The position numbers and the translations under genes were made by a program. Positions 20,377 to 64,000 of a DNA stretch of 64,000 nt are shown here, one piece after another. Under the pieces are notes generated by a model. The model worked only from the letters and a program-made list of their open reading frames with translations, was not told the origin of the DNA and searched no databases. The DNA lies in contig WHVD01000028.1 in NCBI GenBank assembly GCA_015178975.1, positions 620,001 through 684,000 on the forward strand, in the 5' to 3' direction. The stretch comes from Hysterangium stoloniferum (Eukaryota; Basidiomycota; Agaricomycetes; Hysterangiales; Hysterangiaceae). Within the stretch, counting starts at the first letter, position 1; each line of letters opens with the position of its first letter.

Positions 20377-20384
20377 AAAAGGTG

Positions 20385-26774: not shown

Positions 26775-27940
26775 AATAATACAGCAATATCAGCAGCAGC
26801 AACAGAGACAGAAATCCTGGCAAGAAAGGGAGAACAGAGGAGTGATAGAAATTTGGAGTGAATTAGGCTAAAATAGGTCAAAAATGTGAAAATTAAATTA
26901 TGAATAAATCTTTACAGCATCAGAGAAGGTATCAATACTAACCTGGAGTTGTTTTGTATCTCACAGGGTCACAGAGGGGATAGAAATAGCAATAAAGCCA
27001 AAGGCCACAGAATGGGAGGTCAATTTTAACTGTATGGATTATATCTGAGTAAAAAATGGTAAAACTAATTACAGGGAAAGGACTCACTTTCAATACTCTA
27101 CTTATGCCTATAGGGAGCAGTCAGAAAAGCAGTAGAGAGTGCCAGGGAAAAGGAATTTAGACAAAGAGGTCTAAAATAGCCCAAAAACGTGAAAAATAAT
27201 GCATAAATAATTTTTAACAGCATGAGAGAAGGTACCAATACTAACCTGGAGATATGCTATCTGTTCCAGCAAGAATAGAAACAGCAATCAAGGCAATGCA
27301 GCACAGAATAGAGGAATGTCACTGTAAGAATAATATTTGAGCAAAGAAAAGTAAGGTTAATTAGAGGGACAGGACTCACCTTCAATACTCCACTTATACT
27401 CACAGAGAGGGGTCAACAAAGCAGTGGAGAGTCCCAGGGAAAAGGGATTCACACAAATGGGTCTAAAATAGCCCCAAAACGCGAAAAATAATGCATAAAT
27501 AAATTAAAACAGCATCAGAAACCCCAAACCATACCTGATATTATAGGGCAGGCTTCAGATTGTGTGTTCCAATGAGATGAATACCTGGGAAAGAGTAATT
27601 TGACTGCAAATAAATTATTTAATCATTAAAAAAAGCGAAAATTAAATAATAATAGATAGGAGCTCACCACACCTTTTATATTGCCTGAGGAGTTGAGGAA
27701 AGCTTCAGAGATAATAGCTGTTCAATATTGGGGGTCCAGGGCCAGTGGATGGCCAGACTCTAACTGCAGAATAATATATTTAATTATTAAAAAGCGAAAT
27801 TTAATAGAATTAAATAGAGGCCTCAACACACCTTGGTATGGGCCCAAATCCCTTGAGAAATATTCTAAAGAGCAACCCCTCACAATTTAAGGAGCACCAA
27901 GCTGGGAGAGGGAGAGGGGAAAGGAGAAAGTGTGGCAGCC
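26775..27940 (-). repeat. Helitron 5' leader built of ~300-bp repeats
   Basis: Similar blocks recur about every 293-305 bp. On the minus strand each contains donor-like GGTGAGTCC (near 27080 and 27377) and GTTAGTATTG (near 26935 and 27240) next to an AATAATGCATAAATAA-type stretch. Copy 2 has the same arrangement at 54960-55990. These may be short alternating leader exons; I see no coding. Confidence 0.5.
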
Positions 27941-28270
27941 TCAAGGCTTTGCAGTGGCTATGGTGCAGAATGTTCCCACGCATCACAGAAGTCACGAAAA
28001 AGCTCCCGGCGCGCGTCACATGGTGTCACACAATGCTCCCGCGGCACCAAAATACTCCCGCGAATGTTAAAAGCCTCCGGATTTGCTCCCGCGCTGACTA
28101 ATAACAGCCTTCGGGCGCTAACGTGCCCTCAGCTTAGTCACACAGTGAGGTTCGGGCACTGCGTGCCTTCACAAATTGGGGAAAAAGCTCGGGCACTCCG
28201 CGCCCTCACAAATAGGGCCTGCGGCGCCTAAAAATGCCCACCACCCACCATGCTCCTTTCACTTATTTGA
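27941..28270 (-). promoter_or_regulatory. G module: Helitron 5' terminal region
   Basis: GC-rich, with repeated GCTCCCGCG motifs and GGGCACTCCGCGCCCTCAC. The same terminal module closes all units (10363, 47594, 56532, 59656, 63481). Confidence 0.6.
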
Positions 28271-28373
28271 TGATGATGATGATGATATTCCCAAATGACA
28301 TAATGTATGACATAACATTCCCGCGCTAGTGCGCGTGTGACACCATCGCGCCTTGTGACTGTCGCGCGCCCTT

Positions 28374-43544: not shown

Positions 43545-43667
43545 CAAGCCTGGGAACCCTTGCAATGCTGCGGGGCGGTCACTTCGTGACCTGCCCCACA
43601 ACTTCGCTGCGGGCTCCAGCTTGTTGGGGGGCTTCACCCCCCAAACCCCCCCGCATCAACAACTTTT

Positions 43668-43900
43668 AAGTGTTGCCAAACAGAAAGTGTTGCCAAACAG
43701 AAAGTGTTGCCAAACAGAAAGTGTTGCCAAATGGAACATGTCACCAAACAGAAAGTGTCACCAAATGGAAAAAGTTGCCAAATGGAAAGTGTCACCAAAT
43801 GGAAAGTGTCACCAAATGGAAAGTGTCACCAAATGGAAAGTGTCACCAAATGGAAAGTGTCACCAAACGGAAAGTGTCATGGAACAGAAAGTGTCACAGA
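43668..43900. repeat. B satellite, 17-bp (GTGTCACCAAATGGAAA)
   Basis: About 13 copies, with GTGTTGCCAAACAGAAA variants at the left end. Confidence 0.9.
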
Positions 43901-44049
43901 TGGTGACAACAACTCTTATGTATTTCTCAGACACATTGTCAGAGAATATAGAACTTGTGTTAGAAGGAAAACCATTTAAGGAACAGAAAGCCTTTAAAGG
44001 AAGGAAAGTCTTTACAGGGGAGACTGTTCAGAGAATGGAAAGAAAGGCT

Positions 44050-44720
44050 ACAGAAGGAAACAACAGTTACAGAAGGAAACAACAGTTGCAGAAGGAAACA
44101 ACAGTTACAGAAGGAAACAACAGTTACAGAAGGAAACAACAGTGACAAAGAAACCTACAGTTACAGAAGGAAACTACAGTCACAAAGGAAACTACAGTTA
44201 CAAAGGAAACACCAATGGCTACAAAGGAATCAATGGTTACAAAAGAATTAATGGTACAAAGGAATCAAAGGTTTCAAAGGAATCAAAGGAATCAACAGTT
44301 ACAAAAGAATCAACAATTACAAAGGAATCAACAGTTACAAAAGAATCAATGGTTACAAAGGAATCAATGATTACGGTTACAAAAGCAACAACAGCCACAA
44401 AGGAAAGACAGCTCAGAAAAGGAATGATGGTAAAAACAGACAAAAGGAACAACAGTTACAAAGTACACAATGGTTACAAAGTAAACAACACTTACAAAGG
44501 AAACAATGGTTAAAAAGTAAACAACAGAAACCTTTGGAGAATGGAAACCAAGGTTACAAAAGAAACAAAAGAACAACAGTTACAAAAGGAATAAAGGGGT
44601 ACAAAAGGAATACAGGTCACAAAGGTAATCACAGGTCAGAAAAGTAATGATAGGCCAGAAAAGCAATGATAGCTCACAAAAGTAATCACAGGCCTGAAAA
44701 GTAATCCCAGGTCAGAAAAG
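44050..44720. repeat. C satellite, ~15-19 bp (CAGTTACAGAAGGAAACAA-type)
   Basis: Tandem but diverging units with an ACAGTTACAAAGGAA core. They decay into TCACAAAAGTAATGAYAG variants after 44600. Confidence 0.85.
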
Positions 44721-44839
44721 CAATGACAGTAGAGAAAGACATTTGATTGAGAGAAAATTGATGAGTATTCATTAAGCATGGATGGATCATTGCCATGACT
44801 TCATTTGCATGATTGGATTTCAAAAAGAAACAATGGTTA

Positions 44840-44940
44840 CAAAATTATTTTATTTTATTGTTTTTCATTTCAATTTATTTTATTTTAAAACATTTTATAT
44901 TCATTTATTATATTTTATTTGAATTATTCTGATTTTTTTG
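44840..44940. repeat. AT-rich D tract
   Basis: TTATTTTATTGTTTTTCATT-type sequence, shared almost word for word with units at 57420 and 61850. Confidence 0.8.
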
Positions 44941-46418
44941 AGGCCGATCAGAGGGGGACGGAGGAAGAAGGAAACAGTACACACAGCAGCTGGACAAAGA
45001 GAGAAGGAAACAGTACACACACTCACTGAAGAAAGGGTACACACACCACCTGGAGGAAAGAGAGGGCTGGTCAGAGGAGGATGGTGGAAGAAGGAAATGG
45101 TAGACATACTGTAGGAAAGAGAGAGTAGGCCAATCAGAGGAACACGCACTGGCTGGAGGAAAGAGAATGGAGGCCAATCAGGGCAGGATGAAGAGAGAAG
45201 GAAAGGGTACACAAACCACCTGGAGGGAAGAGAGAGGGCCGATCAGAGCAGGATGGAGAGAGAAGGAAATAGTACACACACTTGCTGCAGGAAAGAGAGA
45301 GGGGGCCAATCAGAGCAGGACGGAGGGAGGAGGAAAGGGGACACGCACCTCCTGGAGAAAAGAGAGAGGAGGACGAAGGGAGAAGGAAACGGTACACAGA
45401 GTGGGTGGAGGAAAGAGAGAGGAGGCCAGTCAGAGGAGGACAGAGAGAGGGGGGAAAAGGAACACACACCGGCTGGAGGAAAGAGGAGGCCGATCAGAGG
45501 AGGATAGAGTGGGAAAGGGAACATGCACCGGCTTCAGGAAAGAGAAGGGGCCAATCAGAAGAGGACAGAGAGAGAGGGAAAGGAAACGCGCACCGGCTGG
45601 GGGAAAGAGAGGAGGCCAATCAGAGAAGGATGGAGAGAGAAGGAAAGGAGACACATACCATCTGGGGGAAAGACAGAGGGGGGCAAAGAGAGAAGGAAAG
45701 GGGACACACATCCCTGGAGGAAAGAGAGGAAGACAATCAGAAGAGGCTGAAGAGAGAAGGAAAGGGGACACGCACCTCCTGGAGGAAAGAGTGAGGAGGT
45801 TGATTAGAGGAGGACAGAGAGAGAAGGAAAGAAAATGCGCACCGGCTGGAGGAAAGAGAGAGGAGGCCAATCAGAGGAGGATGAAGAGAGAAGGAAACTG
45901 TACACCCACCACCTGGAGGAAAGAGAGGAGGAAAAAGGGAGAAAGACAGGCTACATGCAACTCCTGGAGGAAAGAGAGAGGAGGACGATCAGAAGAAGAC
46001 AAAGAGAGAAAGACAGGGTAAACGCACCTCCTGGAGAAAAAAGGGAGAGGGGAAGGGTACACACAGCTCAGAGGAGGGCAAAGAGAGAAGGAAAGGGTAC
46101 ACGCACTCGCTGGAGGAAAGGGAGAGGAGGACGATCAGAGGAGAACAAAAAGAGGAGGAAAGGGGACACACACTTGCTGGAGGAAAGAGAGGAGGCCATC
46201 AGAGGAGGACGAAGAGAGAAGGAAAGGCTACATGCACTCCCTGGAGGAAAGAGAGGAGGCCCATGAGTGGAGGACGAAGAGAGAAAGAAAGGGTACACAC
46301 ACATCCTGGAGGAAAGAGAGAGGAGGCGATCAGAGGAGGACGAAGAGAGAAGAAAAGGGGACACGCACCAACTGGAGGAAAGACAGACAGATGTAAGAGA
46401 GAAGGAAAGGGGACACAC

Positions 46419-46662
46419 TGTTAGATTATATAATACCAACCATTGTTCCAACTGGGACCATATGGTGTACAGCTCTGAGTTCAGTGTGTATATGATCTAA
46501 TAGGAATGGCACTTAGGGTTATATCCTTAAGTACAGTGTAAGACCAAACCTACCCAAGGTCAGATGGTGTAGTGGTTAACACCTTCGTTATGTAATCGAG
46601 AGATCCTGGGTTCAATCCCCAGTCTGGCTATTCATTTTCTACATTACTTATGTTTTCTAACA
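46419..46662. mobile_element. 244-bp TG...CA element (solo-LTR/TRIM/SINE-like)
   Basis: Begins TGTTAGATTATA and ends TTTTCTAACA, with 7-bp inverted termini TGTTAGA/TCTAACA. It is flanked by the 5-bp direct repeat CACAC (46414-46418 and 46663-46667). Removing it plus one repeat restores an E unit (GGGGACACACATCCTGG). TG...CA ends and a 5-bp duplication are typical of LTR-retrotransposon LTRs. No internal coding. The duplication is low-complexity, so chance cannot be excluded. Confidence 0.65.
46558..46630 (+). tRNA. tRNA-like sequence with A and B boxes
   Basis: 73 nt. The 7-bp acceptor stem GGTCAGA/TCTGGCT has two G-T wobbles; the D stem is GTGT/ACAC and the T arm CTGGG-TTCAATC-CCCAG. The A box TGGTGTAGTGG and B box GGTTCAATCCC match Pol III consensus. 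The anticodon stem has a T-T mismatch and the 7-nt loop TATGTAA has A where T33 is expected. The nominal anticodon TGT would be Thr, but I do not trust the identity. More likely a tRNA-derived promoter or pseudo-tRNA than a working tRNA. Confidence 0.55.
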
Positions 46663-46740
46663 CACACATCCTGGAGGAAAGAGATGAGGACGATCAGAGG
46701 AGGATGAAGAGAGAAGGAAAGGGGACACGCACCAACTGGA

Positions 46741-47130
46741 GGGGCCGATCAGAGCAGGGTGCACGCCCAATTGGGCACAAATGGGCACAGCGCGTGCGCG
46801 CGTTGGCAAACGGAACACGCTTTGCTGGTTTGTGCCCGAGTGGGCGGGCAGGCATGTGCCCATGGATGGGAGTGTGTGCGCGGTGGATGGGAGTGGATGC
46901 GTCATGGATGGGTATGCGGTGGATGGGTGCGTGGTGGATGGGTGCGTGGCAGATGGGTGCGCGGCGGATGGGTGCGTGGCGGATGGGTGCGTGGCGGATG
47001 GGTGCGTGGCGGATGGGTGTGCGGCGGATGGGTGCGCCGTGGGTGGGTGCGTGGTGGATGGGTGCGGGTGGATGGGTGCACGGTGGATGGGAGCGGGTGG
47101 ATGGGTGCGCGGTTGAAAATGCGGCGCGTG
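46741..47130. repeat. F0 block and 15-bp F minisatellite
   Basis: F0 (46741-46861) matches 21736-21870. F has about 17 copies of GGTGGATGGGTGCGC and GGCGGATGGGTGCGT. Confidence 0.85.
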
Positions 47131-47673
47131 TATAAAAGGAGGTGAATCAGAGGATGAGGGAGAGAGAAGGAAGAGGGACACTCACCGACTGGAGGAAAAG
47201 ACGGAACAGGCACCGGCTGGAGGAAAGAGAAGACGAATCAGAGGATGAGGGAGAGAGAAGGAAGAGGGACACTCACCGACTGGAGGAATACACACAGAGA
47301 GGAGGCCGATCAGAAGGCCGATCAGAGGAGGAGGGAGAGAGAAGGAACAGGACACTCACTGACTGGAGGAAAAGATGGAACAGGCACCGGCTGGAGGAAA
47401 GAGAGAGGAGGCGGATCAGAGGAGGATGAAGGAAACGTGCTCCTGTGCTGACTAATTTCGCACTGTTGATCGTACCTTTTACCTTCATTATACGGCCATT
47501 ATGGCGCTAGAGCAGGAAGAAAGTTCGGGCGCTCCGCGCCCTCGTGGTGCCTAAAAGCACCCACAACCCACCGTACAACTTTACTATATATTGACAAGCC
47601 TGGGAACCCTTGCTATGCTGCAGGGCAGTCGCTTTGCGACTGGCCCCACAACTTCGCTGCGGGCTCCGGCTTG

Positions 47674-47694
47674 TTGGGGGGCTTCGCCCCCCAA
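47674..47694. promoter_or_regulatory. Module A hairpin near Helitron 3' end
   Basis: A 9-bp stem TTGGGGGGC/GCCCCCCAA with a TTC loop. It is preceded in module A by a second palindrome (GTCGCTTTGCGAC here, GGTCACTTCGTGACC in other copies). Helitrons have a hairpin close to the 3' end; here it is about 80 bp in, farther than usual. Confidence 0.6.
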
Positions 47695-47872
47695 ACCCCC
47701 CCGCATCCATGACTCTTAAGTATTTCTCAGCACTTCTAAGTATTTACATATAACAATCACTGTTAGAAGTTAGAAAAGTTAGAAACAATCAATCAAAATA
47801 CATTAAAACTTCAATCTCATAATACATCTTTGTACACTATATTTGCTGTTCTCTTTGTCTCCTTTAATAATA

Positions 47873-49475
47873 CAGTGACTTACAAAACGTATCCAATGTT
47901 TTGTAGTTTCAGCTTATATATGCTATATCCCAGTAGATAAAATAGTAGAAATCGCCAAAATATTTGTGAACATGACCTATCATGTATATATTTAGATGGT
48001 AGAACTATATTATGTAATATCCATATATGGAAACACTATAAATATTTTAATGGAGAGGGTTCATTGGATACGTTTTGTAACTGACAGGTTCTGGCATGAA
48101 AACCATATGCCTATGTTGATTGTTTGCATTTGTTTATGTTTTTCAACATGTCATGTGATCATTCTATACTACAGTATAAGTTGAAGGGCTTTCTCAGCTA
48201 AGATTCCCTCAATTCTAACCATGCATCCCCTTTCCACTGCTGCCCAGTATGAGATCCTTTCTCTACTTGATGCTGGCCATTCTGCCAGACAAATTTCAGT
48301 TTCTACTGGCTATAGCTATGCTACTATCTCTAGACTTCATTCTAAACACCATTCCCACCTTTCTAAGTCCTCTGGTGGTCACCCTTCCAAACTCTCCACA
48401 GCCAACATCCATATTGCACAATGCCTTATCAGCTCTGGAAAGGCTGATACAGCTGTAGATGCAACGAAGGCACTTTGCACTATCACCAACCAGTCACTCA
48501 ATCCTCAAACAGTGCATCATTGACTCAAGGCAGCTGGGATGAAGCCTGTGGTAAAGAAGAAAAGGCCTCTTCTTTCTAAGAGGGATAAAAAGGAGAGAAT
48601 GGATTTTACTTTGGCATATCAGGATTGGACTGTGAAGGATTGGAAGAACGTGGTGTGGTCTGATGAGACCAAAATCAATAGGCTGGGGTCAGATGGCAGG
48701 AAGTGGGTGTGGAAAAGGGCAGGGGAGGGCTTGAGTGACAGGCTGGTTGAGGGAACCCTGAAGTTTGGTGGTGGATCTTTAATGGTTTGGGGGTGCATGC
48801 TGTGGGAGGGGGTTGGGTATGCATGCAAGATTGATGGAAGGATGGATGGGGACTCTACATCCAGATTCTGGAGGATGACCTGCAAGCCAGTCTTAAGGAC
48901 TATGGTAAATCTGCCAATGGTATCATCTTCCAGCAGGACAATGACCCCAAGCATACCTGTAAGAAGGCCCAGTATTGGTTCCAAGAAAATGGTTTCAGGG
49001 TTCTCTCATGGCCAGCACAGTCTCCTGACTTGAATCCCATTGAACACCTATGGAATGACCTGAAGAGGAGGTTGGCAGGGTATGAGAATGCACCCCAGGG
49101 GATGGAAGAGTTGTGGGAGAGGGTGGTGGATGAATGGTACAAGATTGATGAAAAGGTGTGTCAGGATTTGATTGAAAGTATGCCTAGGAGGGTTTCAGAT
49201 ATATTAAAGGCAAAGGGTGGCTACACTAAGTACTAAATACTAGTAATTTCCTGCCTAAATATGTCAGTTACAAAACGTATCCAATGAACCCTCTCCATTG
49301 AAAAATTCATAGTGTTTCCATATATGGATATTACATAATATAGTTCTACCATATAAATATATACATGATAGGTCATGTTCACAAATATTTTGGTGATTTC
49401 TACTATTTTATCTACTGGGATATAGCATATATAAGCTGAAACTACAAAACATTGGATACGTTTTGTAAGTCACTG
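47873..49475 (+). mobile_element. Tc1/mariner element nested in Helitron copy 2
   Basis: 1603 bp, with TA at both sides (47871-47872 and 49476-49477). The 214-bp TIRs (47873-48086 and 49262-49475) begin CAGTGACTTACAAAACGT and are nearly identical. Each TIR carries at its inner end an inverted copy of its own tip (CATTGGATACGTTTTGTAA). Helitron copy 3 shows the empty site (TTAATAATATTTTTATCC near 63745). It interrupts the last ~20 codons of the Helitron helicase. Confidence 0.9.
48221..49236 (+). pseudogene. Tc1/mariner DD34E transposase, broken
   Basis: Begins MHPLSTAAQYEILSLLDAGH. The N-terminal helix-turn-helix (ARQISVSTGYSYATISRLHS) would bind the TIRs. The DDE domain has its first Asp in VWSDETKINRLGSDG, its second in IIFQQDNDPKHTCKKA and Glu in PDLNPIEHLWND; 34 residues separate the last two (DD34E, Tc1 type). 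An in-frame TGA after residue 100 (48521-48523) probably replaces CGA (HH*LKAAG). A 1-nt shift in the GG run near 48845 moves the second half to another frame, which runs to a TAA at 49236. The element is therefore not self-sufficient. Confidence 0.85.
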
Positions 49476-52400
49476 TATTTTTATCCTATTCCAACTTCTT
49501 CCCCTTGAAAGTCCCACATACAATTGCCCATGTCCAAACACTGCCATTCTCAAATCTATTCCTACCACTTTCAAAGACTGTCCCTGTGACTTGTTAATTG
49601 TCATTGCAAATGCCAACCGCACTGGAAACTGAATACGATGCAGTTTAAATGGCAGTTGATCATCATTTGTAATTATTTTGATCCGTGAAAGAAATGCCAT
49701 TTTTCCAGTACATGGTCCAGTTAGGATCTGCACTTGAAGCAAATGATTTTCCATTTTCACCAATCACAATCGTGTCCCATTGAAAAGCCCCCTCTGTGGA
49801 TCTATGTTCCATAATAGCATCAATGGCACTCCTGGCTTCACCTCAAGTCGACTTGGTGAGATTCCACCAAAATTCAGGCCGTTCAAATACTCTACAGGAT
49901 ACATCTCTGTCTCACTGTCTCCCTCTGCAGTATCAGCACTGTGGTACATACGACTCTCTCCAGGGAATTTATTCAGAAGTTCTGAATTAATCTCATCTAC
50001 TTCTGAATTCCTTGGACACAGAATTGCCCGGTCTAAGAAGTCTTCATCTTGCCAATCCCTTTGGTCTCTATCCACATGGATGTCTGGATATATTTCAGCA
50101 ATTAGATCAGACATTTCTGGACCACAGATCATATGAGGAGGGATATCCATTGTATGATCCAAAGGTAAATCCTTTCTATGGCCTATATCCAATAGCCACT
50201 GAGCAAACTGTTGACTGTCTGGATCATCCTGGTCCACCCGCATATTCTTTTTCAAGAAGAGTACCTTGATATGCTTCCACAGTTCTGATTTCTGGATACA
50301 TTGTCCAATGATCTGTTCTTTTGAACCCTTTGGTACAACAGGCAAAGTCTGCTGGAAGTCACCTCCTCAGGCCACAGGAATCCCTCCAAAGGGAAGATCC
50401 TCCTTGTCTAATAAATCCCTCAGGGTTCTGTCAACTGCCTCACATGTGAAACGTGACTGCATGGGAACTTCATCCCAGATAATCAGTCGGACATTCTTCA
50501 TGAGCTCTGCTTTTTCTGAACCCTTTTTGATATGACATAGAGCATCCTTCTCACAGGGAACAGGGATTGAAAATGTGCTGTGAGAAGTGCGACCACCCTT
50601 GAGAATCATTGATGCAATTCGAGAAGATGCCACACAAGGTACAATGTAGCCCTTGGCACGACATGCATGTGCCAGAGTATTCCATACAAAGGACTTGCCA
50701 GTGCCACCTGGACCATTCACAAAAAACAATTTGCCCTGCTGCTCCTCATCCACTGCCTTCACGATAGTCTCAAAGGCAGCTCGTTGTTCAGGATTGCACT
50801 TTTCAAGATTGGCTTGGGCACTGGCATGCTCAATATCAACATCATAATCTGACTGCTCCCTAATGAGACGGTTGCCAAGAATGCCATCCCAAACATCAGT
50901 GCAGTTTGGCATGGTTGGATAGTGTGAGAGGGACTTTCCAGAATAGTGGAGGATCTTATCAATCTCATAGAGACCAAAGTCATAAATGCTATTTGGTGAT
51001 GGATTGACAATGCCATGTTTTTGCTGAAGTATGAACTTCAAATCATCACAAAGAAATACTTTAAAGTCATTCCAGAGTTCATGGGGTTGTGCAGGGGAGG
51101 ACATGGTCAAAATGATGGCAAACAACCTGCGAAGTTGAAACCCAGACTCTATGCGACTGGCTTCTGTAAGGCACATGTGCCACTGGCGGTCATCTTCAAG
51201 CAAACCACGTGCAACACAGGCTTGCTGAAATGTGGGATAAGTCTCACCCTGAAAAGTCCTGAGCTGTTCAAATGAGGTGGCACCTTTGACAACAGTGAGC
51301 AAAGTACGGAGGTGGAATCTTTCCCCACTGGCAATATTGACAAAATGAATGCACCCTATGGAAAAACCACTTTGACGTGGCTTCCATGATTTCTTCTTGG
51401 GGAAATATGTGAAATACTCAGGAAAGTCCATATATAATGTGTCCTGGGCACGCTGTCCATTATAACCAATGAGACCCTTGGCATTAGCTTCAAAATAAGC
51501 CATGAGAGTTGTCCCTGAACGCTCTGCCCTTTGTAAAGCCTCAGCAGGACCTTGATCACCATCAAAAAGTACAGTGTTTTCCCCAGGAAGATGGACCCCA
51601 AGTGCCATTACTGCAGGAACCTGGGTGTGGAGTTCATTACACATTAATCGCCAGACAGATTCATGTGCACTGACATAACGTGCATCAATGTACTGTTGAA
51701 TCTCATCTGGTGTCTTTCCAAATTCCATAGTTGTACGATCATGGCCCTTGTAACAGTATTTATGCATGTACTTCATTGACCTATTGGTAAAGGTCAACTC
51801 TACATTGATGTGGCATTCAAAGGTGAGAATCAAAATGGGGGAGTAAGGGACAACATGTCTGTTGTCATATGTAAACTTGGGAGTTTCATAAACCCTTCCA
51901 TTGTTGGGGCAACGGCATGTTGGATAGCCTTCCTCATTGACAATGGTAGCTTCACACCAATCCTTTGGATAGTGTTTACTGCATTCCTTATCTACCATAC
52001 AGGCAGCATTTGGATGATCAGTTCCACAGGGACCATGGGTCATGAGCTGACCTACTAAATTAAACAGTCTGGGATGTGTTTCAGGATCTGGAAAGCAGGC
52101 AGAAACCATGGAGTCAACATCTTCTGGTGTCCTTGGCTTATTCTGGTCATCAAACCATATAAGGCAGTGCATGTGTGGAAGACCATGCTTTTGGAATTCA
52201 ATGACATGGATGTGGGCTACTGTTCTACCAAAGATGTGGTCCTCTGTGATCATCTTGAGCAACTTAGCCTTCTTGGCAGCAAAGACCCTGGAGACTAAAT
52301 CAGGACGATCAGCTGGAGTCTGGCCAGGAAGCAATTCATCAGTAACCTCCTTCCACTTGGGATTAGCTGTCATGGTGATGAAGCAGCTGGCATTGCCATA

Positions 52401-53829
52401 CCTTCGTGCAATTGCAAATGAATTTTGCAAACTTTGTCTCATATCCCTTGAACTGCCAGTAAATGTAGAAGGGAGTATCACCCTCTGACCAATACTATTG
52501 GGATCTGTGTTGACATCCTCACGTGTAAAGGTATAAACCACCTGGTTGTAGAGTTCTGCACGTAACCTTGGTTGATTATCTCTGAGAAATCTCAATCTGC
52601 GCTGCTCTGTTACTGCCCAGGCATTGACAATATACTGTTGGAATAGATTTTGTGCATAAAAAAGGGTCATGGCTTTATATGCTCTGGGAAATAGGCAATA
52701 GGCATAATATTCACATTGGGTCACCTTCCGACTTTTATCTTCATCTTCACCTTCTTCATCCTGCTGTCCAGGCTGGGGCTGCCAATTTTGATTGGCATAG
52801 GGAATGTCCCATGACCAACCACGCTCACCCCTGGGAAAGAGCATGACATAATGAAGGGGTGTATAAATGGCTTGTGCATCATGGACATGATGGAACTGAC
52901 CCCCTCTCCTCTGAACAATAATATCCCTTGGGTCACCATGACCTGTATCACCATCTCCAGGGAGAATGACTGCAAGTTCATCACCAGTTGGAAGATTGTA
53001 TCATTAAAAGCTTTGTAACTCAGCCTGACATGTAACCTTGGAGTCTCTGCCTGTGTCCTCAATCACTCATGTGCCTGGCGATAGAGTTGTATAAAGGGAT
53101 TATATTGCTCTATCATATCCTGCAAGTCAGAAAAAGTTTGGTTATTTAGGTTTCTATTTGCCCTGTGATTCTGCCTCTGCTGCAATGCCTGCCTCAGTCC
53201 ATCCTCCTGTGCCAATGCAGGATCATGGATGTAAAGCTGCGCATAACTACGTGATACACCTTCTCCATAAGGAATCAAGGAACCATGCTGGTGATATAAT
53301 TCACCATGGATTTTAAAGACATATGGACCACCACCACCTTGCAGGACAGACTCATCCAAATTGACACCCAGTGATGTAAATGCAAATGCATTATTATAGG
53401 CACGAATATTCTTGAGAAATTCTCTGCTATTGTCTGTATTACCCTCCAGGAGAGACCTTAAAGTGTGAGGGACTGGCTCAAGTATTGGGAGGGCCACCTT
53501 TCCTCGCTTGCAACACTTGCCAAATTTTGGATGTGTCTTAGAACTATTTGCCAGACGCTCATCCATCCAGTGCAAAGCTCTACAGTCTGGACACTGTATG
53601 TTCATAGGTCCCAAGTCATGTCTTGAGAATATATCCTCCACAACTGGTTGCCGTCCAATGGGTAATTGTGGAATGGGTGGTAGTGGCAGTGGAGGTGGAG
53701 GCATAGCTGCAGGCTGTAGAATGGCTGGAGGTGGGAGTATGACAGGAGGTGGGGGAATAGCAGGAGGTGGTGCTAACTGTAACCATTGTTGCTGTTGTGG
53801 AGCTGGATTTCCAGGTACATAGTGAGGCT

Positions 53830-54290
53830 GTGGTGGTGCTAACTGCAAAATTGGTCCCTGTTGTTGCTAAGCTGGATTTCCAGGTGGATAGTGATGCTGT
53901 GGTGGAGGTGGATGGTAATGCTGTGGTGGTGCTAACTGCAAAATAGATCCCTGTTGTTGCTGAGCTGGAATTCCAGGTGGATAGTGATGCTGTGGTAAAG
54001 GTGGATGCTGATGCTGTGGTGGTGCTAACTGCAAAATGGGTCCCTGTTGTTGTTGAGCTGGATTTTGAGGTGGATGGTGAAGCTGTGGGGGTGCCCACTG
54101 CAAAATAGGTGGTTGTTGCTGTTGTGGAGCTGGATTTCCAGGTGGATGGTGAAGCGGTGGTGGTGCCCACTGAAAAATAGGTGGTTGTTGCTGTTGTGGA
54201 GCTGGATTTCCAGGTAGATGATGATACTGTAGTGGTGCCCACTGCAAAATAGGTGGTTGTTGCTGTTGGGAAGCTCTATTTCCAGGGGGA
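53830..54290. repeat. In-frame minisatellite of the Rep N-terminus (copy 2)
   Basis: Units encode PAQQQQPPILQWAPPQLHH-type peptides, with copy number and order different from copy 1. Confidence 0.75.
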
Positions 54291-54959
54291 ATATGATGCT
54301 GTGGTGGGGCTAACTGCAAAATGGGTACCTGTGCCTGGAGCTGTGGCATAGCATTAATAGGTGGATGACCATGGTGCAGTGGTGCAGATGGACGACCACG
54401 CTGGACTGGTGCTAATTCGACAATTGGCACCTGTGGCTGAACAGACACATGTGCTAGTTGATGACCCTGCTGTGGATGTGGTGCTAACTGCAAAATTGGT
54501 TGTTGCACTTGAGCAGCTGTATTTCCTCTTCCACGACCCTGTCCAATTGGTTTTTGTAATGGTGGCAAAGCTAAATACTGCCTATGCAAGGCAGCCACTG
54601 CATCAGAGCCAACTATAGCAGAGCCACCTGCAGCAGAGCCACCTGCAGCAGAGCCACCTGCAGGCTGTGGTTGTGGAGTAACCAAAAATGGATCATCAGA
54701 TTGATGTGCACCAACAGGAGGATGTGGGAATGGTGAAGCAGGGAGTGGTACATCATAATTCACCACAGCTGAACGTCGATAGCAGTCAGATGGAGATGTC
54801 ATTTGCAATTGTGCCCTATGCTGCCTTCGCTCCTCTTCCCGATGACGCTCAGGTGTTTGATCCATAATAATGGAGGGATCCACTCAAAAGAGATATGCCA
54901 GTGCAATATCACAAAGGGAGCTATATGGCTTATCTAGAACCAAGCAGTAGCAGCAAACA

Positions 54960-55990
54960 CAAAAAACCTGTTAAAGAGAGAGGGAGTAAGTTGAAATGAC
55001 TTGATTAGTAAGAAATAAAGCATAAATAAATTTTCACACAATGAGAGAAGGTATCAATACTAACCTTGAGGGATTTCCTATCTTCCAGGGAGAATAGAAA
55101 TAGCCCCAAAGCAAAAAGGCCACACAATGGGAGTCAATGTCCACTGTATGAATAATCACTCAGCAAAAAAAAGTGAAATTAAACATAGAGATAGGACTTA
55201 CCTTCAATACTCCACACTACTCACAGGGAGCACTCACAAAAACAATGGTGAGTGCTAGAGAAAAAGAAATCAGACAAATAGATCCAAAATAACCTAAAAA
55301 TGTGAAAAATGAAGTCTAAATAATTTTTAACAACATCATAGAGTGTATCAATACTAACCTGGAGGTGTTTTATATCTCCCAGGGAGAGCAGAAACAACAA
55401 TAAAACCAAAAAGCTATACAATGGAGGTGAATGGCAACTGTAAGAATTATCTTTAAGCAAAAAAAGGTGAAATTAATTCCAGGGACAGGACTCACCTTCA
55501 ATGTGCTACCTATACTCACAGGGACCACTTACAAAAGCAGTGAAGAGTGTCAGAAAAAAATAATCCAGACAATTGGATCTAACATTGCCCAAAAATGCAA
55601 AGAATAAAGTATAAATAATTTAAAACAGCATAAGGAAGTCCAAAACACACCTCAAAAGTATAGGAGAGTCTTGAGACTGTGTACAGGAAAATTATGAATA
55701 ATAAGAACTGCCAGGAAAGGGCAATGTGACTGCAGACAAATTTTTTAGTCAATCAAAAAAGCAAAAGTTGATTAATAATAACTACAGACTCACCACACCT
55801 TTGATATAGTGCCAAGAGGCCAGAAAAACTTCAGAGAAGGGCCACCTCTAATATGGGGAGCAGAGGGCCAGAAGGGAGGCAGATTCTGTCTGCATGATAA
55901 CATGATAATAAATAATTATCCATTAGAAAAGCAACATTAAATGAGATTAAATACAGTCTTAACGCACCTTGATAAAGGTTTAATATGTTG
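54960..55990 (-). repeat. Helitron 5' leader repeats (copy 2)
   Basis: ~293-bp blocks (GTATCAATACTAACCT at 55053 and 55346; TTCAATACTCC/TTCAATGTGC at 55203 and 55497) with donor-like GTTAGTATTG and GGTAAG/GGTGAG on the minus strand, as in copy 1. Confidence 0.5.
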
Positions 55991-56049
55991 AGAAATAATT
56001 CCAGATGGCAACTCTGAGGAGGAGATGGCCGGGTGAGAGGGGGAAGGGA

Positions 56050-56532
56050 GATAAGAGTGGCAGCCTTGAGGCTTGACTGCGTGCGGGCTTCCTGTGTTCC
56101 TGTGCCGGCAAAGGGAATGGTCCCACGGGATTGAAAAAGCTCCCGCGGCATTACACTGTCACGAAAGTACTTCCCGCGATGTGACAGAATACTCCCACGG
56201 TGTCACAAATGCTCCCGCGGTGTCACAAATGCTCCCGCGGTGTCACAAATGCTCCCGCGGTGTCACAAATGCTCCCGCACTATTAGAAAAGCTCCTGCGG
56301 TGTCATGAAATACTCCCGCGAGTGGAGAAAAGCTCCCGTGCTGACTCATTCATAGCACTAAATTCTGGTACCTTTTACCTGCCGTATCGGGGCATTCGGG
56401 CACTGACATGCCCTCATCGGGATTTCAGGGCCGAATCGGGGAAAAATTCGGGCGCTGCACGCCCTCACGAATAGGGCGCCTAGCGGCACCAAAAAGCGCC
56501 CACCACCCACCAAGCAACTTTACTATATATGA
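56050..56532 (-). promoter_or_regulatory. G module with four perfect GGTGTCACAAATGCTCCCGC units
   Basis: Helitron 5' terminal region. Tandem GCTCCCGCGGTGTCACAAAT (20-bp) units at 56193-56280, then the conserved GGGCGCTGCACGCCCTCACG block and the TC end. Confidence 0.6.
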
Positions 56533-56683
56533 CAAGCCTGGGAACCCTTGCTACACTGCAGGGCGGTCACTTCGTGACCTGCCCCACAACTTCGCTGCGG
56601 GCTCCGGCTTGTTGGGGGGCGAAGCCCCTCAAACCCCCCCGCGTCGACAACTTTGAAGTATTTCTGAGACTCATTGTTTGAAA

Positions 56684-56950
56684 GGAAAGTGTTTAGAGAA
56701 CGGAAAGTGTTTAGAGAACGGAAAGTGTTTAGAGAACGGAAAGTGTTCAGAGAACGGAAAGTGTTTAGAGAATGGAAAGTGTTTAGAGAACGGAAAGTGT
56801 TCTGAGAACGGAAAGTGTTCTGAGAACGGAAAGTGTTCTGAGAACGGAAAGTGTTCTGAGAACGGAAAGTGTTCTGAGAACGGAAAGTGTTCTGAGAACG
56901 GAAAGTGTTCTGAGAATGGAAAGTGTTCTAAGCAAGGAAAGTGTTGTAAG
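56684..56950. repeat. B satellite, 18-bp (CGGAAAGTGTTCTGAGAA)
   Basis: About 15 copies; TTTAGAGAA variants come first and TTCTGAGAA variants later. Confidence 0.95.
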
Positions 56951-56984
56951 AATGGAAACATCAGTCACAAATGGACGCCACAGC

Positions 56985-57335
56985 CCCAAAAGGAAACAAT
57001 GGTTACAAAAGGAGACAAAGGTTACAAAAGGAAACAACGGTTACAAAGGAAACAACGGTTACAAAGGAAACAACGGTTACAAAGGAAACAACGGTTACAA
57101 AGGAAACAACGGTTACAAAGGAAACAACGGTTACAAAGGAAACAACGGTTACAAAGGAAACAACGGTTACAAAGGAAACAATGGTTACAAAGGAGACAAT
57201 GGTTACAAAAGGAAACAACAGTTACACAGGAAACAACAGTCACAAAAGGAGACAAAGGTTACAAAGGAAACAATGGTTACAAAGGAGACAATGGTTACAA
57301 AAGGAAACAATGGTTACAAATGGAAAGAGTGGTTA
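56985..57335. repeat. C satellite, 18-bp (CGGTTACAAAGGAAACAA)
   Basis: About 19 copies, nearly identical between 57025 and 57200. Confidence 0.95.
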
Positions 57336-57369
57336 AATTGACTCTCAACTGCAAGTAATTACTGTGGTC

Positions 57370-57518
57370 ACTCAATTTATATATTTTGATTTAACATATT
57401 TTATTTTGATTTATTGAATTTTATTTTATTTTATTGTTTTTCATTTCGATTTATTTTATTTTTAAACATTTTATATTCATTTATTATATTTTATTTGAAT
57501 TATTCTGATTTTATTCAG
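57370..57518. repeat. AT-rich D tract
   Basis: TTTTATTTTGATTTATTGAA-type sequence. Confidence 0.8.
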
Positions 57519-59094
57519 GCCGATCAGAGGGGGACGGAGGAAGAAGGAAACAGTACACACAGCAGCTGGACAAAGAGAGAAGGAAACAGTACACACACTC
57601 ACTGAAGAAAGGGTACCCACACCACCTGGAGGAAAGAGAGGGCTGGTCAGAGGAGGATGGTGGAAGAAGGAAATGGTAGACATACTGTAGGAAAGAGAGA
57701 GTAGGCCAATCAGAAGAACACACACTGGAGGAAAGAGAATGGAGGCCAATCAGGGCAGGAAGAAGAGAGAAGGAAAGGGTACACAAACCACCTGGAGGGA
57801 AGAGAGAGGGCCGATCATAGCAGGATGGAGAGAGAAGGAAATAGTACACGCACTTGCTGGAGGAAAGAGAGAGGAGGCGAATTAGAGCAGGACGTAGGGT
57901 GGAGGAAAGGGGACACACACCTCCTGGAGAAAAGAGAAGGAAACGGTACACGCAGTGGTTGGAGGAAAGAGAGAGGAGGCTGATCATAGGACAAAGAGAG
58001 AAGGAAACGGTACAAACACCTCCGGGAGGAAAGAGAGAGGATGAAGGGAGAAGGAAACGGTAGATGCACCAGCTGGAGGAAAGAGAGAGGAGGCCAATTA
58101 GAGGAGGACAAAGAGAGAAGGAAATGGTACACGCACCTCCTGGAGGAAAGAGGGAGACCGATCAGAGGAGGACAAAGGGAGAAAGAAACCGTACACCCAC
58201 CGGCTGGAGGAAAGAGAGGAGGCAAATCAGAGGAGGACAAAGGGAGAAAGAAACAGTACACACAATGGCTGGAGGAAAGAGAGGAGGCCAATTAGAGGGT
58301 GACAAAGAGAGAAGGAAATGGTACACACACCTCCTGGAGGAAAGAGAGAGGAGGATGAAGGGAGGAGGAAACAGTACATGCACCGGCTGGAGGAAAGAAA
58401 GAGGAGGACAGAGGGAGAAGGAGCAGTACACGCACCGGCTGGAGGGAAGGGAGATGAGGACAAAGGGAGAAGGAGCAGTACAGGCACCGGCTGGAGGAAA
58501 GAGAGGGGGCCGATCAGAAGAGGACAGAGAGAGAGAGGGAAATGGAACGCACACCGGCTGGAGGAAAGAGAGAGGAGGCAAATCAGCGCAGGAAAGAGGA
58601 AGAAGGAAATGGTCGACGCACCGGCTGGAGGAAAGAGAGGGGGACAATCAGAGGAGGACAAAGAGAGGGGAAAGGGAGTGCACACTGGCTGGCGGAAAGA
58701 GAAGGGGCCAATCAGAAGAGGACAGAGAGAGGGAAATGGAACGCGCACCGGCTGGAGAAAAGAGAGAGGAGGCAAATCAGGGCAGGACAGAGGAAGAAGG
58801 AAATGGTAGATGCACCGGCTGGAGGAAAGAGAGAGGGCCCCGATGAGAGGATGGAGAGAGAAGGAAACGGTACACGCACCTGGAGGAAAGAGAGGAGGAT
58901 GATCAGAGGACAAAGAAAGAGGAAATGGTACACGCACCGGCTGGACGAAAGAGAGAAGAGGTCAATCAGAGGAGGACGGAGAGAGAAGGAAACGGTACAC
59001 ACACTCGCTGGAGGAAAGAGAGAGGAGGCGGATTAGCGCAGGACGGAGGGAGAAGGAAAGAGTACACACATCACCTGGAGGAAAGAGAGAGGGT
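57519..59094. repeat. GA-rich E satellite (~66-bp unit)
   Basis: About 24 units. The first ~400 bp (57519-57900) are almost identical to 44935-45340 of unit Z, and 58500-59090 to 62240-63000 of unit Y. Confidence 0.92.
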
Positions 59095-59400
59095 GCGCTG
59101 TGAATGGGAGAGGGTGCGCTGTGAATGGGAGCGGGTGTGCAGTGGATGGGAGTGGGTGCACAGTGGATGGGAGCGGTGGATAGGTACACGGTGCAGGTGC
59201 ATGGTGGATGGGTGCACGGTGGATGGGTGCGCGGTGGATGGGTGCGCGGTGGATGGGTGCGCGGTGGATGGGTGCGGTGGATGGGAGCAGGTGCGTGGTG
59301 CGCGGTGGATGGGGTGCGCGGTGGATGGGGTGCGCGGTGGATGGGGTGCACAGTGGATGGGGTGCGCGGTGGATGGGAGCAGGTGGATGGGTGCACGGTT
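59095..59400. repeat. F minisatellite, 15-bp (GGTGGATGGGTGCGC)
   Basis: About 20 copies with GGTGGATGGGGTGCGC (16-bp) variants. Confidence 0.9.
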
Positions 59401-59810
59401 GAAAATGCCGCGCATGTATAAAATAATTCCATCACGAAAAAGTTCCCGGGCATCACAAAATGTCATACAATGCTCCCGCGGCACCACAAATACTCCCGCG
59501 AACGCCAAAAAGCCTCCGCATTTGCTCCTGTGCTGAGGTAATAAGGACCTTTGGGCGTCAAGCTTAGTCAGGTTCGGGCGCTCTGCGCCCTCACGAAGAC
59601 GGCTTGCGGCACCTAAGAATGCCCATGGACCCACCATGCTCCTTTCACTTATTTGACAAGCTTAGGAACCCTTGCTACACTGCGGGGCGGTCGCTTTGCG
59701 ACCGGCCCCACAACTTCGCTGCGGGCTCCAGCTTGTTGGGGGGGCTTCGCCCCCCAAACCCCCCCGCGTCAACAACTTTTAAGTATTTCTGAGACTCATT
59801 GTTTGAATGG

Positions 59811-60430
59811 AAAGTGTTTAGAGAACAGAAAGTGTTCAGAGAGAGGAAAGTGTTCAGAGAGAGGAAAGTGTTCTGAGAGTGGAAAGTGTTTAGAGAATGG
59901 AAAGTATTCAGAGAACGGAAAGTGTTTAGAGAGCGGAAAGAGTTTAGAGAATAGAAAGAGTTTAGAGAACGGAAAGTGTTTAGAGAACGGAAAGTGTTTA
60001 TAGAATGGAAAGTGTTTAGAGAACAGAAAGTGTTCAGAGAATGGAAAGTGTTCTAAGAGCGGAAAGTGTTCTAAGAATGGAAAGTGTTCTAAGAGCGGAA
60101 AGTGCTCTAAGAGCAGAAAGTGTTCTAAGAATGGACAGTGTTCTAAGAGCAGAAAGTGTTCCAAGAACAGAAAGTCACTTTAGAACAGAAAGTCACATTA
60201 GAACAGAAAGTTGCTTTAGAACAGAAAGTCACTTTAGAAAAGAAAGTCGCATTAGAACAGAAAGTCACTTTAGAACGGAAAGTCATGTTGGAACAGAAAG
60301 TCGTGTTAGAACAGAAAGTCACTTTAGAAAGGAAAGTCGCGTTAGAACAGAAAGTCCCTTTAGAACAAAAAGTCGTGTTGGAATGGAAAGTCGTGTTGGA
60401 ACGGAAAGTCGCATCCAAAGGAAAGTCGCG
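59811..60430. repeat. B and B' satellites, 18-bp
   Basis: GGAAAGTGTTTAGAGAAC units to about 60165, then AGAAAGTCACTTTAGAAC (B') units to about 60430. Confidence 0.92.
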
Positions 60431-60620
60431 TTCAAAGGAATCAACAGTTACAAAGGAATCAACGGTTACAAAAGGGAACAACAGTTACAAAGAAATCAAC
60501 AGTTACAAAGGAATCAACGGTCACAAAAGGGAACAATGGTTACAAAAGGGAACAATGGTTACAAAAGGGAACAATGGTTACAAAAGGGAACAACTGTTAC
60601 AAAGGGAACAACCATTACAT
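60425..60620. repeat. C satellite, first block
   Basis: GTTACAAAGGAATCAACA and GGTTACAAAAGGGAACAAT variants. Confidence 0.85.
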
Positions 60621-60659
60621 AACTTTTAAGTATATCTGGGGCTTTGCTGTTTTAGAACT

Positions 60660-61380
60660 AAAGGCATTTAGAATGGAAAGTGTTCTAAGAACGGAAAGTG
60701 TTCTAAGAACGGAAAGTGTTCTAAGAACGGAAAGTGTTCTAAGAACGGAAAGTGTTCTAAGAACGGAAAGTGTTCTAAGAACGGAAAGTGTTCTAAGAAC
60801 GGAAAGTGTTCTAAGAACGGAAAGTGTTCTAAGAACGGAAAGTGTTCTAAGAACGGAAAGTGTTCTAAGAACGGAAAGTGTTCTAAGAACGGAAAGTGTT
60901 CTAAGAACGGAAAGTGTTCTAAGAACGGAAAGTGTTCTGAGAACTGAAAGTGTTTAGAGAACGGAAAGTGTTCTAAGAATAGAAAGTGTTTAGAGCACAG
61001 AAAGTGTTCAGAGAATGGAAAGTGTTTAGAGAGCGGAAAGTGTTTAGAGAGTGGAAAGTGTTCAGAGAACGGAAAGTGTTTAGAGAATGGAAAGTGTTTA
61101 GAGAATGGAAAGTGTATAGAGAACTGAAAGTGTTCAGAGAATGGAAAGTGTTTAGAGAGCGGAAAGTGTTTAGAGAGTGGAAAGTGTTCAGAGAGTGGAA
61201 AGTGTTTAGAGAATGGAAAGTGTTGAGAGAATGGAAAGTGTTTAGAGAACAGAAAGTGTTCAGAGAACAGAAAGTGTTCAGAGAACGGAAAGTGTTTAGA
61301 GAACGGAAAGTGTTCTAAGAATGGAACGTGTTCTAAGAATGGAACGTGTTCTAAGAATGGAAAGTGTTCTAAGAACGGAA
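60660..61380. repeat. B satellite, second block (AACGGAAAGTGTTCTAAG)
   Basis: The first ~15 copies (60675-60930) are almost perfect. The rest mix TTTAGAGAA and TTCAGAGAA types. Confidence 0.95.
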
Positions 61381-61417
61381 ACATCAGTCACAAATGGATG
61401 CCACAGCCCCAAAAGGA

Positions 61418-61765
61418 AACATTGGTTACAAAAGGAGACAAAGGTTACAAAAGGAAACAACAGTTACAAAGGAAACAACGGTTACAAAGGAAACAATGGT
61501 TACAAAGGAAACAATGGTTACAAAGGAAACAATGGTTACAAAGGAAACAATGGTTACAAAAGGAAAGAACAGTTATAAAGGAGACAACGGTTACAAAAGG
61601 AAACAACAGTTACACAGGAAACAATGGTTACAAAGGAGACAATGGTTACAAAAGCAAACAATGGTTACAAAAGGAAACAATGGTTACAAAAGCAAACAAT
61701 GGTTACAAAAGGAAACAATGGTTACAAAAGGAAACAATGGTTACAAATGGAAAGAGTGGTTAAAT
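61418..61765. repeat. C satellite, second block
   Basis: GGTTACAAAGGAAACAAT units, closely matching 56995-57340 of unit X. Confidence 0.95.
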
Positions 61766-61799
61766 TGACTCTCAACTGCAAGTAATTACTGTGGTCATT

Positions 61800-61945
61800 C
61801 AATTTACTTATTTTGATTTAATGTATTTTATTTTGATATATTGAATTTTATTTTATTTTATTGTTTTTCATTTCGATTTCTTTTATTTTAAAACATTTTA
61901 TATTCATTTATTATATTTTATTTGAACTATTCTAATTGTATTGAT
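61800..61945. repeat. AT-rich D tract
   Basis: Near-identical to 57370-57518. Confidence 0.8.
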
Positions 61946-61947
61946 GC

Positions 61948-63005
61948 CCATCAGAGGAGGACGGAGGAAGAAGGAAACAGTGCACACAGCAGCTGGACAA
62001 AAAGAGAAGGAAACAGTACACACACCACCTGGAGGAAAGAGAGAGGAGGACAATCAGAGGACGAAGAGAGAAGGAAACGGTACACACACCTCCTGGAGGA
62101 AAGAGAGAGGACAAAGGGAGAAGGAAATGGTACATCCACCGGCTGGAGGAAAGAGAGAGGAGGACAGAGGGAGAAGGAGCAGTACACACACCGGCTGGAG
62201 GAAAGAGAGAGGAGGACAAAGGGAGAGGGAGCAGTACACGCACTGGCTGGAGGAAAGAGATGGGGCCGATCAGAAGAGGACAGAGAGAGAGGGAAATGGA
62301 ATGCGCACCGGCTGAAGGAAAGAGAGAGGGCAAATCAGCGCAGAATAGAGGAAGAAGGAAATGGTAGACGCACCGGCTGGAGGAAAGAGAGGGGGATAAT
62401 CAGAGGAGGACAAAGAGAGGGGAAAGGGAGTGTGCACTGGCTGGAGGAAAGAGCAGCGGACAATGCTGGAGGAAACAGAGGGGGCCAATCAGAAGAGGAC
62501 AGAGAGAGGGAAAGGGAACGCACACCAGCTGGAGAAAGAGAGGGGGACAATCAGAGGAGGACAAAGAGAGGGGAAAGGGAATGCGCACCGGCTGGAGGAA
62601 AGAGAGAGGCCAATCAGAAGAGGACAGAGAAAGAGGGAAATGGAACGCACACCGGCTGGAGGAAAGAGAGAGGAGGCAAATCAGCGCAGGACAGAGGAAG
62701 AAGGAATTGGTAGACGCACCGGCTGGAGGAAAGAGAGAGGGGTCCCGTTGAGAGGAGGACGGAGAGAGAAGGAAACGGTACACACACCTGGAGGCAAGAG
62801 AGGAGGATGATCAGAGGACAAAGAAAGAGGAAATGGTACATGCACCGGCTGGACGAAAGAGAGAAGAGGTCAATCAGAGGAGGACGGAGAGAGAAGGAAA
62901 CGGTACACATACTTGCTGGAGGAAAGAGAGAGGAGGCGGATTAGCGCAGGACGGAGGGAGAAGGAAAGAGTACATGCATCACTTGGAGGAAAGAGAGAGG
63001 GCACG
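61948..63005. repeat. GA-rich E satellite (~66-bp unit)
   Basis: About 16 units. Its right two-thirds are nearly the same sequence as in unit X. Confidence 0.92.
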
Positions 63006-63007
63006 CC

Positions 63008-63255
63008 GTGAATGGGAGTGGGTGCGCAGTGGATGGGAGTGGGTGGATGGGTACGCGGTGGATGGGGGCGGGTGGATGGGTGCGCGGTGCATGGGAGCAG
63101 GTGCGTGGTGCATGGGAGCAGGTGCGGGATGGATGGGAGCAGGTGCGGGATGGATGGGAGCAGGTGCGGGATGGATGGGAGCAGGTGCACGGTAGATGGG
63201 TGCGCGGTGGATGGGTGCGTCGTGGATGGGTGCATCGTGGATGGGAGTGGGTGCG
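63008..63255. repeat. F minisatellite, ~15-20 bp
   Basis: GGTGGATGGGTGCGC mixed with GGATGGATGGGAGCAGGTGC units. Confidence 0.85.
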
Positions 63256-63481
63256 CCGTGCCTGTTTGCGTGCAAACAACGCGGCATGCGGTGCATCACA
63301 CCTGGCAATGCCCATGACAGGAACGCAGGTGACAGGTACAGCTGTTTTGCCCCCGTGCTGACTAAGCTAGGGGCGCTAAGTTTAGTAATACTCTCCCACA
63401 CCTCAGGGTTCGGGTGCTCCGCGCCCTCACACGGCGCCTAAAAGCGCCCACGGACCCACCATGCTCCTTTCACTTATTAGA

Positions 63482-64000
63482 CAAGCCTGGGAACCCTTGC
63501 TATGCTGCAGGGCGGTCACTTTGTGACCTGCCCCACAACTTCGCTGCAGGCTCCGGCTTGTTGGGGGGCAAAGCCCCCCAAACCCCCCCACATCCATGAC
63601 TCTTAAGTATTTCTGAGCACTTCTAAGTATTTACATATCACAATCACTGTTCAAAAAATTTAATCAGAACAATAAATACTTTAAAACTTCAATCTAATAA
63701 TACATCTTTGTACACTATATTTACTGTTCTCTTTGTCTCCTTTAATAATATTTTTATCCTATTCCAACTTCTTCCCCTTGAAAGTCCCACTTACAATTAC
63801 CCATGTCCAAACACTCCCATTCTCAAATCTATTCCTACCACTTTCAACGACTGTCCTTGTGACTTGTTAATTGTCATTGCAAATGCCAACCGCACTGGAA
63901 ACTGAATACAATGCAGTTTAAATGGTAGTTGATCATCATTTGTAATTATTTTGATCCGTGAAAGAAATGCCATTTTTCCAGTACATGGTCCAGTTAGGAT
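63482..64000 (-). mobile_element. Helitron copy 3 (array member 5), runs off window
   Basis: Left end CAAGCCTGGGAACCC, module A with hairpin, a ~95-bp 3' region, then the C-terminus of the helicase. It retains the uninterrupted site where Tc1 entered copy 2. Confidence 0.8.
63689..64000 (-). pseudogene. Helitron helicase C-terminus, copy 3 (partial)
   Basis: Encodes AFAMTINKSQGQSLKVVGID and, after two stops, VGLSRGRSWNRIKI followed by LLKETKRTVNIVYKDVLLD and TGA (63689-63691). Compared with copy 2 the GQLYVG segment reads G*L*VG: CAA to TAA and TAT to TAA. The rest lies beyond the window. Confidence 0.7.

Follow-up and report, generated by a model that had tools for sequence, protein, structure and literature searches.

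A head-to-tail Helitron array in Hysterangium stoloniferum as a probable stack of insertions at resident 5′ tips

Helitrons that lie head to tail with no base between them can result from rolling-circle copying that reads through several units, or from repeated insertion at an existing element end; which of the two applies has so far been argued from few cases. This question is raised by an array of directly joined Helitrons in Hysterangium stoloniferum, which starts within a 64-kb piece of contig C201 (the window, to which all plain coordinates refer) of the 111-Mb, 554-contig genome. The array is probably a stack of independent Helitron insertions that landed serially at resident 5′ tips. 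This is based on the direct junctions, the A/T flanks, the unlike neighbours, a strand bias, the contrast to a sister family and the occurrence of cut tips.

Array layout and identity of the units

A preliminary description of the window had reported five directly joined units with shared termini, and all five left termini were found in place, exactly at 43545, 47595, 56533, 59657 and 63482. The last four are directly preceded by the right termini ATATTGA, ATATGA, ATTTGA and ATTAGA, respectively, and 43545 is preceded by other sequence. The tandem array as such was thus recovered, and only the count of five had to be raised: further 3′ termini were detected past the window edge at 70584 and 73214 and the last 5′ tip at about 75661, resulting in seven units in total from 43545 to about 75661. 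At every junction a 3′ end …GCTTG (minus strand) is joined to the next 5′ end TC… with zero bases between them.

These ends, 5′ TC… and 3′ …GCTTG, define the elements termed family 1 here. The units are located on the minus strand. Unit 1 (43545..47594) is the base of the array and belongs to family 1 with a class-A 5′ tip; it lacks a RepHel match, and no recognised Helitron tip is located at its 3′ flank. Unit 2 (47595..56532) is a family-1 element with a class-A tip and RepHel pieces inside, followed by units 3 (56533..59656) and 4 (59657..63481), both of family 1 with class-B tips and without RepHel match. Unit 5 lies in the window with its 3′ part (63482..64000), extends to 70583 and contains RepHel; units 6 and 7 are situated outside the window at 70584-73213 and 73214 to about 75661. 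The alternation of gene-bearing and gene-less units would follow from independent landings.

Four classes of 5′ tips (A to D) were distinguished. They share GGTGGGT, then 2-3 bases, then TGGG, beginning about 22 bases in and with a variable first G in class C; only the part of this box beyond GGTGGG is independent, as GGTGGG was contained in the class-assigning words. The assignment to class C tolerated four substitutions, and L036 and L037 perhaps belong to class D.

Using Pfam, Helitron_like_N and PIF1 were found together in one open reading frame (ORF) of unit 2, and likewise in one ORF of a second family-1 element of the window at 22268..28270 (minus strand). In unit 2 the RepHel piece at 50367..52844 contains both domains, the piece at 49764..50345 contains the later part of PIF1 and a Pif1 2B domain, and two upstream ORFs (53063..54883; all minus strand) have no Pfam match at E 0.01. 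The motifs PHMH and YMHKYCYK are visible by eye in unit 2, and its RepHel piece was read as carrying HUH, two-tyrosine and Walker A motifs. The 825-amino-acid ORF of unit 2 matches the 22268-28270 element with 80 percent and unit 5 with 89-95 percent in three pieces; the other array units gave no match to it at E 1e-5. In the RepHel ORF of the 22268-28270 element (22260-26711, 1483 amino acids), the PIF1 match reaches only profile position 107 of 223. This ORF stops just beyond the 3′ end of the element, which lacks most of the usual 3′ hairpin region. In four units, the terminal 110 bases form a long stem with a hairpin inside it. In unit 1 (43545..43654, minus strand) this stem extends to the CTTG terminus, with a z of -4.8, and the corresponding region of the three others gave -3.9, -4.7 and -3.9.

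Judged from these domain matches, the Rep fused to a PIF1 helicase makes the elements members of the Helitron superfamily of RepHel rolling-circle transposons. The 5′ TC end is that of canonical Helitron1: in plus view GA forms the last two bases of the tips, in a set from which those lacking a known GA ending had been excluded. Canonical Helitron1 also has a short hairpin near its 3′ end; the hairpin observed here is strong and enclosed in a longer stem that runs to the terminus. The family searched ends in CTTG instead of the canonical 3′ CTRR, and for this reason family 1 was not filed as a textbook Helitron1. The target A^T also differs from the T-rich targets of Helitron2/Helentron, which are given in the available text of PMC5148889 as TTTT before T or C, and TT.

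Insertion sites across the genome

The termini recur genome-wide more often than expected by chance. The 19-base 3′ terminus has 422 matches with at most one mismatch, compared to 1 for a reversed control, and for a word of TRA and the initial 15 terminus bases 208 exact matches were obtained, compared to 0. Together with the flank reads and the domains described above, this bears out the earlier view that they are Helitron-type element ends. The sample consists of the 100 exact matches at the head of the list of 422, located on contigs C1 to C83, and all their flanks were read. A recognised resident 5′ tip is adjoined by 76 of these copies (34 on class A, 20 on B, 16 on C and 6 on D) and none by 24. 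A neighbour within 12 kb is located on the same strand for 62 of the 100 copies and on the opposite strand for 5. The longest same-strand run comprises 13 sites on C28, every one of them on a tip.

Both sides of the elements fit the A^T insertion known from canonical Helitrons. In plus view, 99 of the 100 sampled 3′ ends are preceded by A (T on the element strand), and T comes next after each of the 35 tips examined (A on the element strand). The set of 35 does not include seven core matches that lacked a known tip, nor the tips stacked by family 1; one tip that was kept (L048) carries family 2 stacked beyond a TATGA stub.

Counted from the tip side on contigs C1 to C83, 29 of 63 tips of class A carry a family-1 3′ end from the exact-match list, and in class B 14 of 21 do. 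This list inflates unstacked-tip counts here and in the nearest-3′-end assignment below, as L046, L049, L065, L130 and L140 are stacked by mutated ends. Nine class-B rows from a terminus repeat on C51 were excluded from this count, and three extra sites from the TRA-word search were added for it as well as for the stub-length and nearest-3′-end analyses. When the remaining 41 tips were read, four class-A tips and one class-B tip with a mutated family-1 3′ end were gained, and one class-A tip carried a family-2 end. In total, family 1 is thus found on 48 of 84 class-A/B tips, at least one of which (L068) is not a real tip. The unstacked family-1 copies L074, L116 and L122 and the family-2 copies L168 and L169 adjoin the same other repeat.

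The sister family, family 2, serves as an internal control. In the window it is represented by a minus-strand element at 18753..22267 with the 3′ end CAAGGCTGTGACCC in plus view and a class-C 5′ tip, on which the family-1 element at 22268..28270 is located, so that 18753-28270 forms a second stack of two elements. The family-2 3′ end, CAAGG[CT]TGTGACCC in plus view, has 184 sites with at most one mismatch, and the first 30 exact ones were sampled. All 30 are preceded by A, and just 2 adjoin a class A-D tip, which differs from the 76 of 100 in family 1 (Fisher p = 5e-12). The nearest 3′ end belongs to family 1 for 42 and to family 2 for 4 class-A tips (none found for 17), to family 1 for 12 and to family 2 for 0 class-B tips (none for 9), and to family 2 for 9 and to family 1 for 0 class-C tips (none for 7). 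Of 16 class-C tips, 10 carry family 1 and 1 carries family 2. Tips of both families are used by family 1 and rarely by family 2. The family-2 3′ end of the window (18792-18810) contains ACAACTTTACT, which is identical in word and strand to the core of the class-A 5′ tips.

A plain preference for A/T-rich targets, by which the tips would be hit for their resemblance to TATATGA and their Helitron identity would be irrelevant, is unlikely. The 24 copies located elsewhere agree with such a preference; in plus view, 12 of them follow TA and 9 follow GA. However, the window contains tip-like words, the tips among them, at a density of about 609 per Mb, which extrapolates to tens of thousands genome-wide. 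The tips of classes A, B and C number about 400 (199, 151 and 56), yet tips received 76 of the 100 sampled landings, and family 2, which likewise always follows A, hardly ever adjoins a tip.

Unlike neighbours and shortened tips

The comparison of adjacent units covered four arrays (window, C28, C16, C69) with 19 units, 18 of which have a neighbour within the set. The adjacent unit is the best match for 0 of these 18, as read from the comparison table, and adjacent units differ in tip class and content. Close relatives were found in different arrays, for example unit 6 and C69_2 (88-89 percent), C28_1 and C16_2 (91 percent), and C28_5 and unit 5 (95 percent). By the evidence of these unlike neighbours, the array is not a tandem duplication, and the ordinary segmental duplication with identical units, which the preliminary description had considered, does not apply. 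From the two mechanisms proposed there, repeated insertion at an existing end is retained. Rolling-circle read-through is not supported, given the dissimilarity of neighbours and the location of the closest relatives found, which lie in other arrays or in non-adjacent units.

By read-through, several units would have been copied in one event or a multimeric circle would have been integrated. The G/TC junction is identical to a circle junction, and for bats and plants, arrays and junctions of the head-to-tail type are taken as support for rolling-circle replication in the available text of PMC5876387. For the units compared, read-through is contradicted by the differences between neighbours, and shortened tips whose missing piece lies beyond the newcomer (see below) require insertion, which leaves it a very unlikely origin of the array. 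On C51 (L070, C51:36501-37101), a 44-base segment from the very end of a class-B 5′ tip occurs nine times head to tail in exact terminus register, each copy beginning with TC and ending with CTAG on the element strand. This repeat could be a small read-through product.

Likewise very unlikely is a multiplication of a few founding stacks by segmental duplication or recombination: flanks are shared at L083/L108, L030/L031 and L064/L129, and by eye 11 of the 35 tips have an outer flank word in common with another tip (by duplication or as a recurrent target repeat), but the other 24 have none and the four compared arrays differ in unit content and order.

Serial insertion into resident 5′ tips is further supported by shortened tips and their displaced missing pieces. 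Six of the 76 junctions contain a shortened resident tip, the remainder of which begins with T on the element strand. The missing pieces comprise 3-4 bases. In four junctions (L040 to L098, L019 to L046, L036 to L037, L117 to L118) the missing TTGA or TGA is located directly outside the newcomer's own tip and ends in A on the element strand; in a fifth (L025 to L027) the missing piece is found one unit further outward. On C28, …TTTACTATATA is followed by an insert with its own tip …ATATATTGA and then by TTGA, and the two separated pieces together give the common class-A tip. Similarly, …CTTATA and TGA on C68 give the common class-C tip; on C7 (L036) the tip class is doubtful. Such off-tip insertions occur in 5 of 16 class-C tips, compared to 1 of 60 in classes A, B and D (p = 0.0012, with the class of L036 uncertain).

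Outside 19 of the 35 tips, at least 6 bases of TGA, TTGA, TTTGA, TATGA or TGGA-type units were found, for example five TGA units (plus view) at 28271..28285, outside the minus-strand 5′ tip of the 22268-28270 element. Stub-like tracts of this kind are present at 4.4 percent of the 4503 A^T sites of the window (p = 9e-17 compared to the tips), and at just 1 of 61 A^T sites (1.6 percent) flanking the 24 3′ ends that are not stacked. Pre-existing microsatellite targets are disfavoured by these control frequencies. Abortive copying of the element's own tip was rejected as the sole source, as by eye many first stubs do not match the last bases of the element (e.g., TGA outside TTGA or TTTGA tips). 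A target duplication at each landing is disfavoured by 55 of 76 inner junctions without extra bases. Shortened tips can seed stub tracts; other possible sources are slippage, the loss of units or abortive events.

From these data the following course of events is proposed. Family 1 would insert between A and T, mostly at or within a few bases of a resident 5′ terminus, and the resident may belong to family 1 or to the sister family. As the first base T of the resident doubles as the target T, a landing would yield a G/TC junction and a fresh outward A/TC tip, and with such a tip at each landing the stack would grow one way, outward from the resident 5′ end. Rep would recognise the resident 5′ terminal region, a step that we infer tentatively, and nick the resident A^T as if mobilising that element. 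The newcomer's 3′ end would then be joined to the resident 5′ end instead of its own, i.e., circle-closing chemistry would take place between two elements. A Helitron that is site-specific for Helitron 5′ ends, with a Rep that pairs the incoming 3′ end with a nicked resident 5′ end, is conceivable on this basis, albeit doubtful. It is also possible, with similar reserve, that transposition is steered by tips, so that insertions are directed outside elements of two families and the TGA, TTGA and TATGA stubs record past events.

Several points weigh against serial landing at tips. The recognition of the tip by Rep is deduced, and the stacking contrast between the families may be partly due to their differing age. 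The rejoined tips on C1 (L019) and C2 (L025) exceed the length of the common class-C tip by two bases (a mutated terminus may lie between the two pieces on C1), and on C31 (L078) the missing piece is absent from the next junction. The mere presence of a missing piece is weak evidence, with 4 of 6 compared to 21 of 76 junctions with extra bases (P = 0.053). Stub tracts are too numerous for cut tips as their sole source, and stub length is not significantly related to the unit number of the array (rho 0.28, p 0.22, n 21). The divergence of base and stacked units does not differ significantly (mean 18.6 and 8.2 percent, 8 and 44 units, p = 0.12), with two poor alignments included in the base-unit set. 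Finally, an age gradient along the arrays was looked for and none was seen, the window array included.

Several copies lie in a repeat with ATATTCCCAAATGACATAAT words (window 28286-28320, L007, L055), and other recurring outer flanks are GCATATTCACAAATA and AGACCTAACCA, which suggests further preferred repeats. A further class-A-like 5′ tip is located at 10337..10363 (minus strand), then TGGATGATAGA. Minisatellites with periods of 15-20 and 65-67 bases are abundant in the units (43668-47225 and others) and have a similar order. Within unit 1, a tRNA-Thr gene (TGT anticodon) was identified at 46558-46630 by Rfam and ARAGORN in agreement. The RepHel match of unit 5 is split by about 222 bases at L041:1194-1416 (window coordinates 65194-65416), which hold a tRNA-Ser-like gene (L041:1329-1401) and perhaps represent a tRNA-derived short interspersed element. 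The window also contains a ribosomal protein L3 gene with an apparent intron of about 48 bases; the best matches of one of its exons are fungal PDB chains (top rows 7r81, 8oo0, 7olc and 8esq).

Relation to known Helitrons

Helitrons of the mushroom Pleurotus ostreatus (Castanera et al., 2014; PMC4289320) insert between A and T, as in H. stoloniferum, and are described as often landing in AT-rich regions where other Helitrons are present; in contrast to H. stoloniferum, no base-exact 5′ tip target is described in the text available. In maize, two adjacent head-to-tail Helitrons were attributed to consecutive insertions (Du et al., 2008; PMC2267711). This pair likewise has a G/T junction and differing content, and the AT formed by a host A and the 5′ T is named as a possible target. 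As far as described there, it is a single pair of unclear insertion order, whereas here most sampled copies are stacked and six tips are shortened. For maize, insertion in the vicinity of further Helitrons is also on record (Yang and Bennetzen, 2009, cited via PMC12477314), a shared neighbourhood preference, although the part available does not mention the tip.

Non-canonical Helitrons of another fungus, Fusarium oxysporum, include an element 2 bp upstream of the 5′ end of another (Chellapan et al., 2016; PMC5148889). Furthermore, copies with multiple short 5′ termini, which the nine-copy terminus on C51 resembles, and three tandem copies in Metarhizium acridum are described. Unlike here, these are single cases with Helitron2-like ends and other targets, and insertion or rolling circle is left undecided in the available text. 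Tandem arrays are also known from bats and plants, plant centromeres included (PMC5876387, PMC5148889). They show the same direct 3′-to-5′ joining, but are discussed in the accessible parts either as products of rolling-circle replication or as truncated elements inserted in tandem. The excision footprints of a maize Helitron site (PMC10095026) are likewise short border repeats; as far as reported there, they consist of TA and follow somatic excision, whereas TGA-type stubs outside 5′ tips are found here. For an active wheat Helitron family, de novo insertions with an AT preference are reported, without mention of a tip preference in the available text (PMC13286980).

Head-to-tail pairs, arrays, self-insertion and a liking for Helitron-occupied regions are thus already published. 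In the Helitron and IS91 literature searched, mostly without subscription papers, no description of a Helitron family that mainly targets 5′ tips was found, and this use of 5′ tips by one family appears new. The hundred termini, the unlike neighbours, the shortened tips and the non-stacking sister family favour insertion for one family as the origin of head-to-tail Helitrons. The stacking data further suggest that a Rep-type transposase may choose its target by recognising transposon ends.

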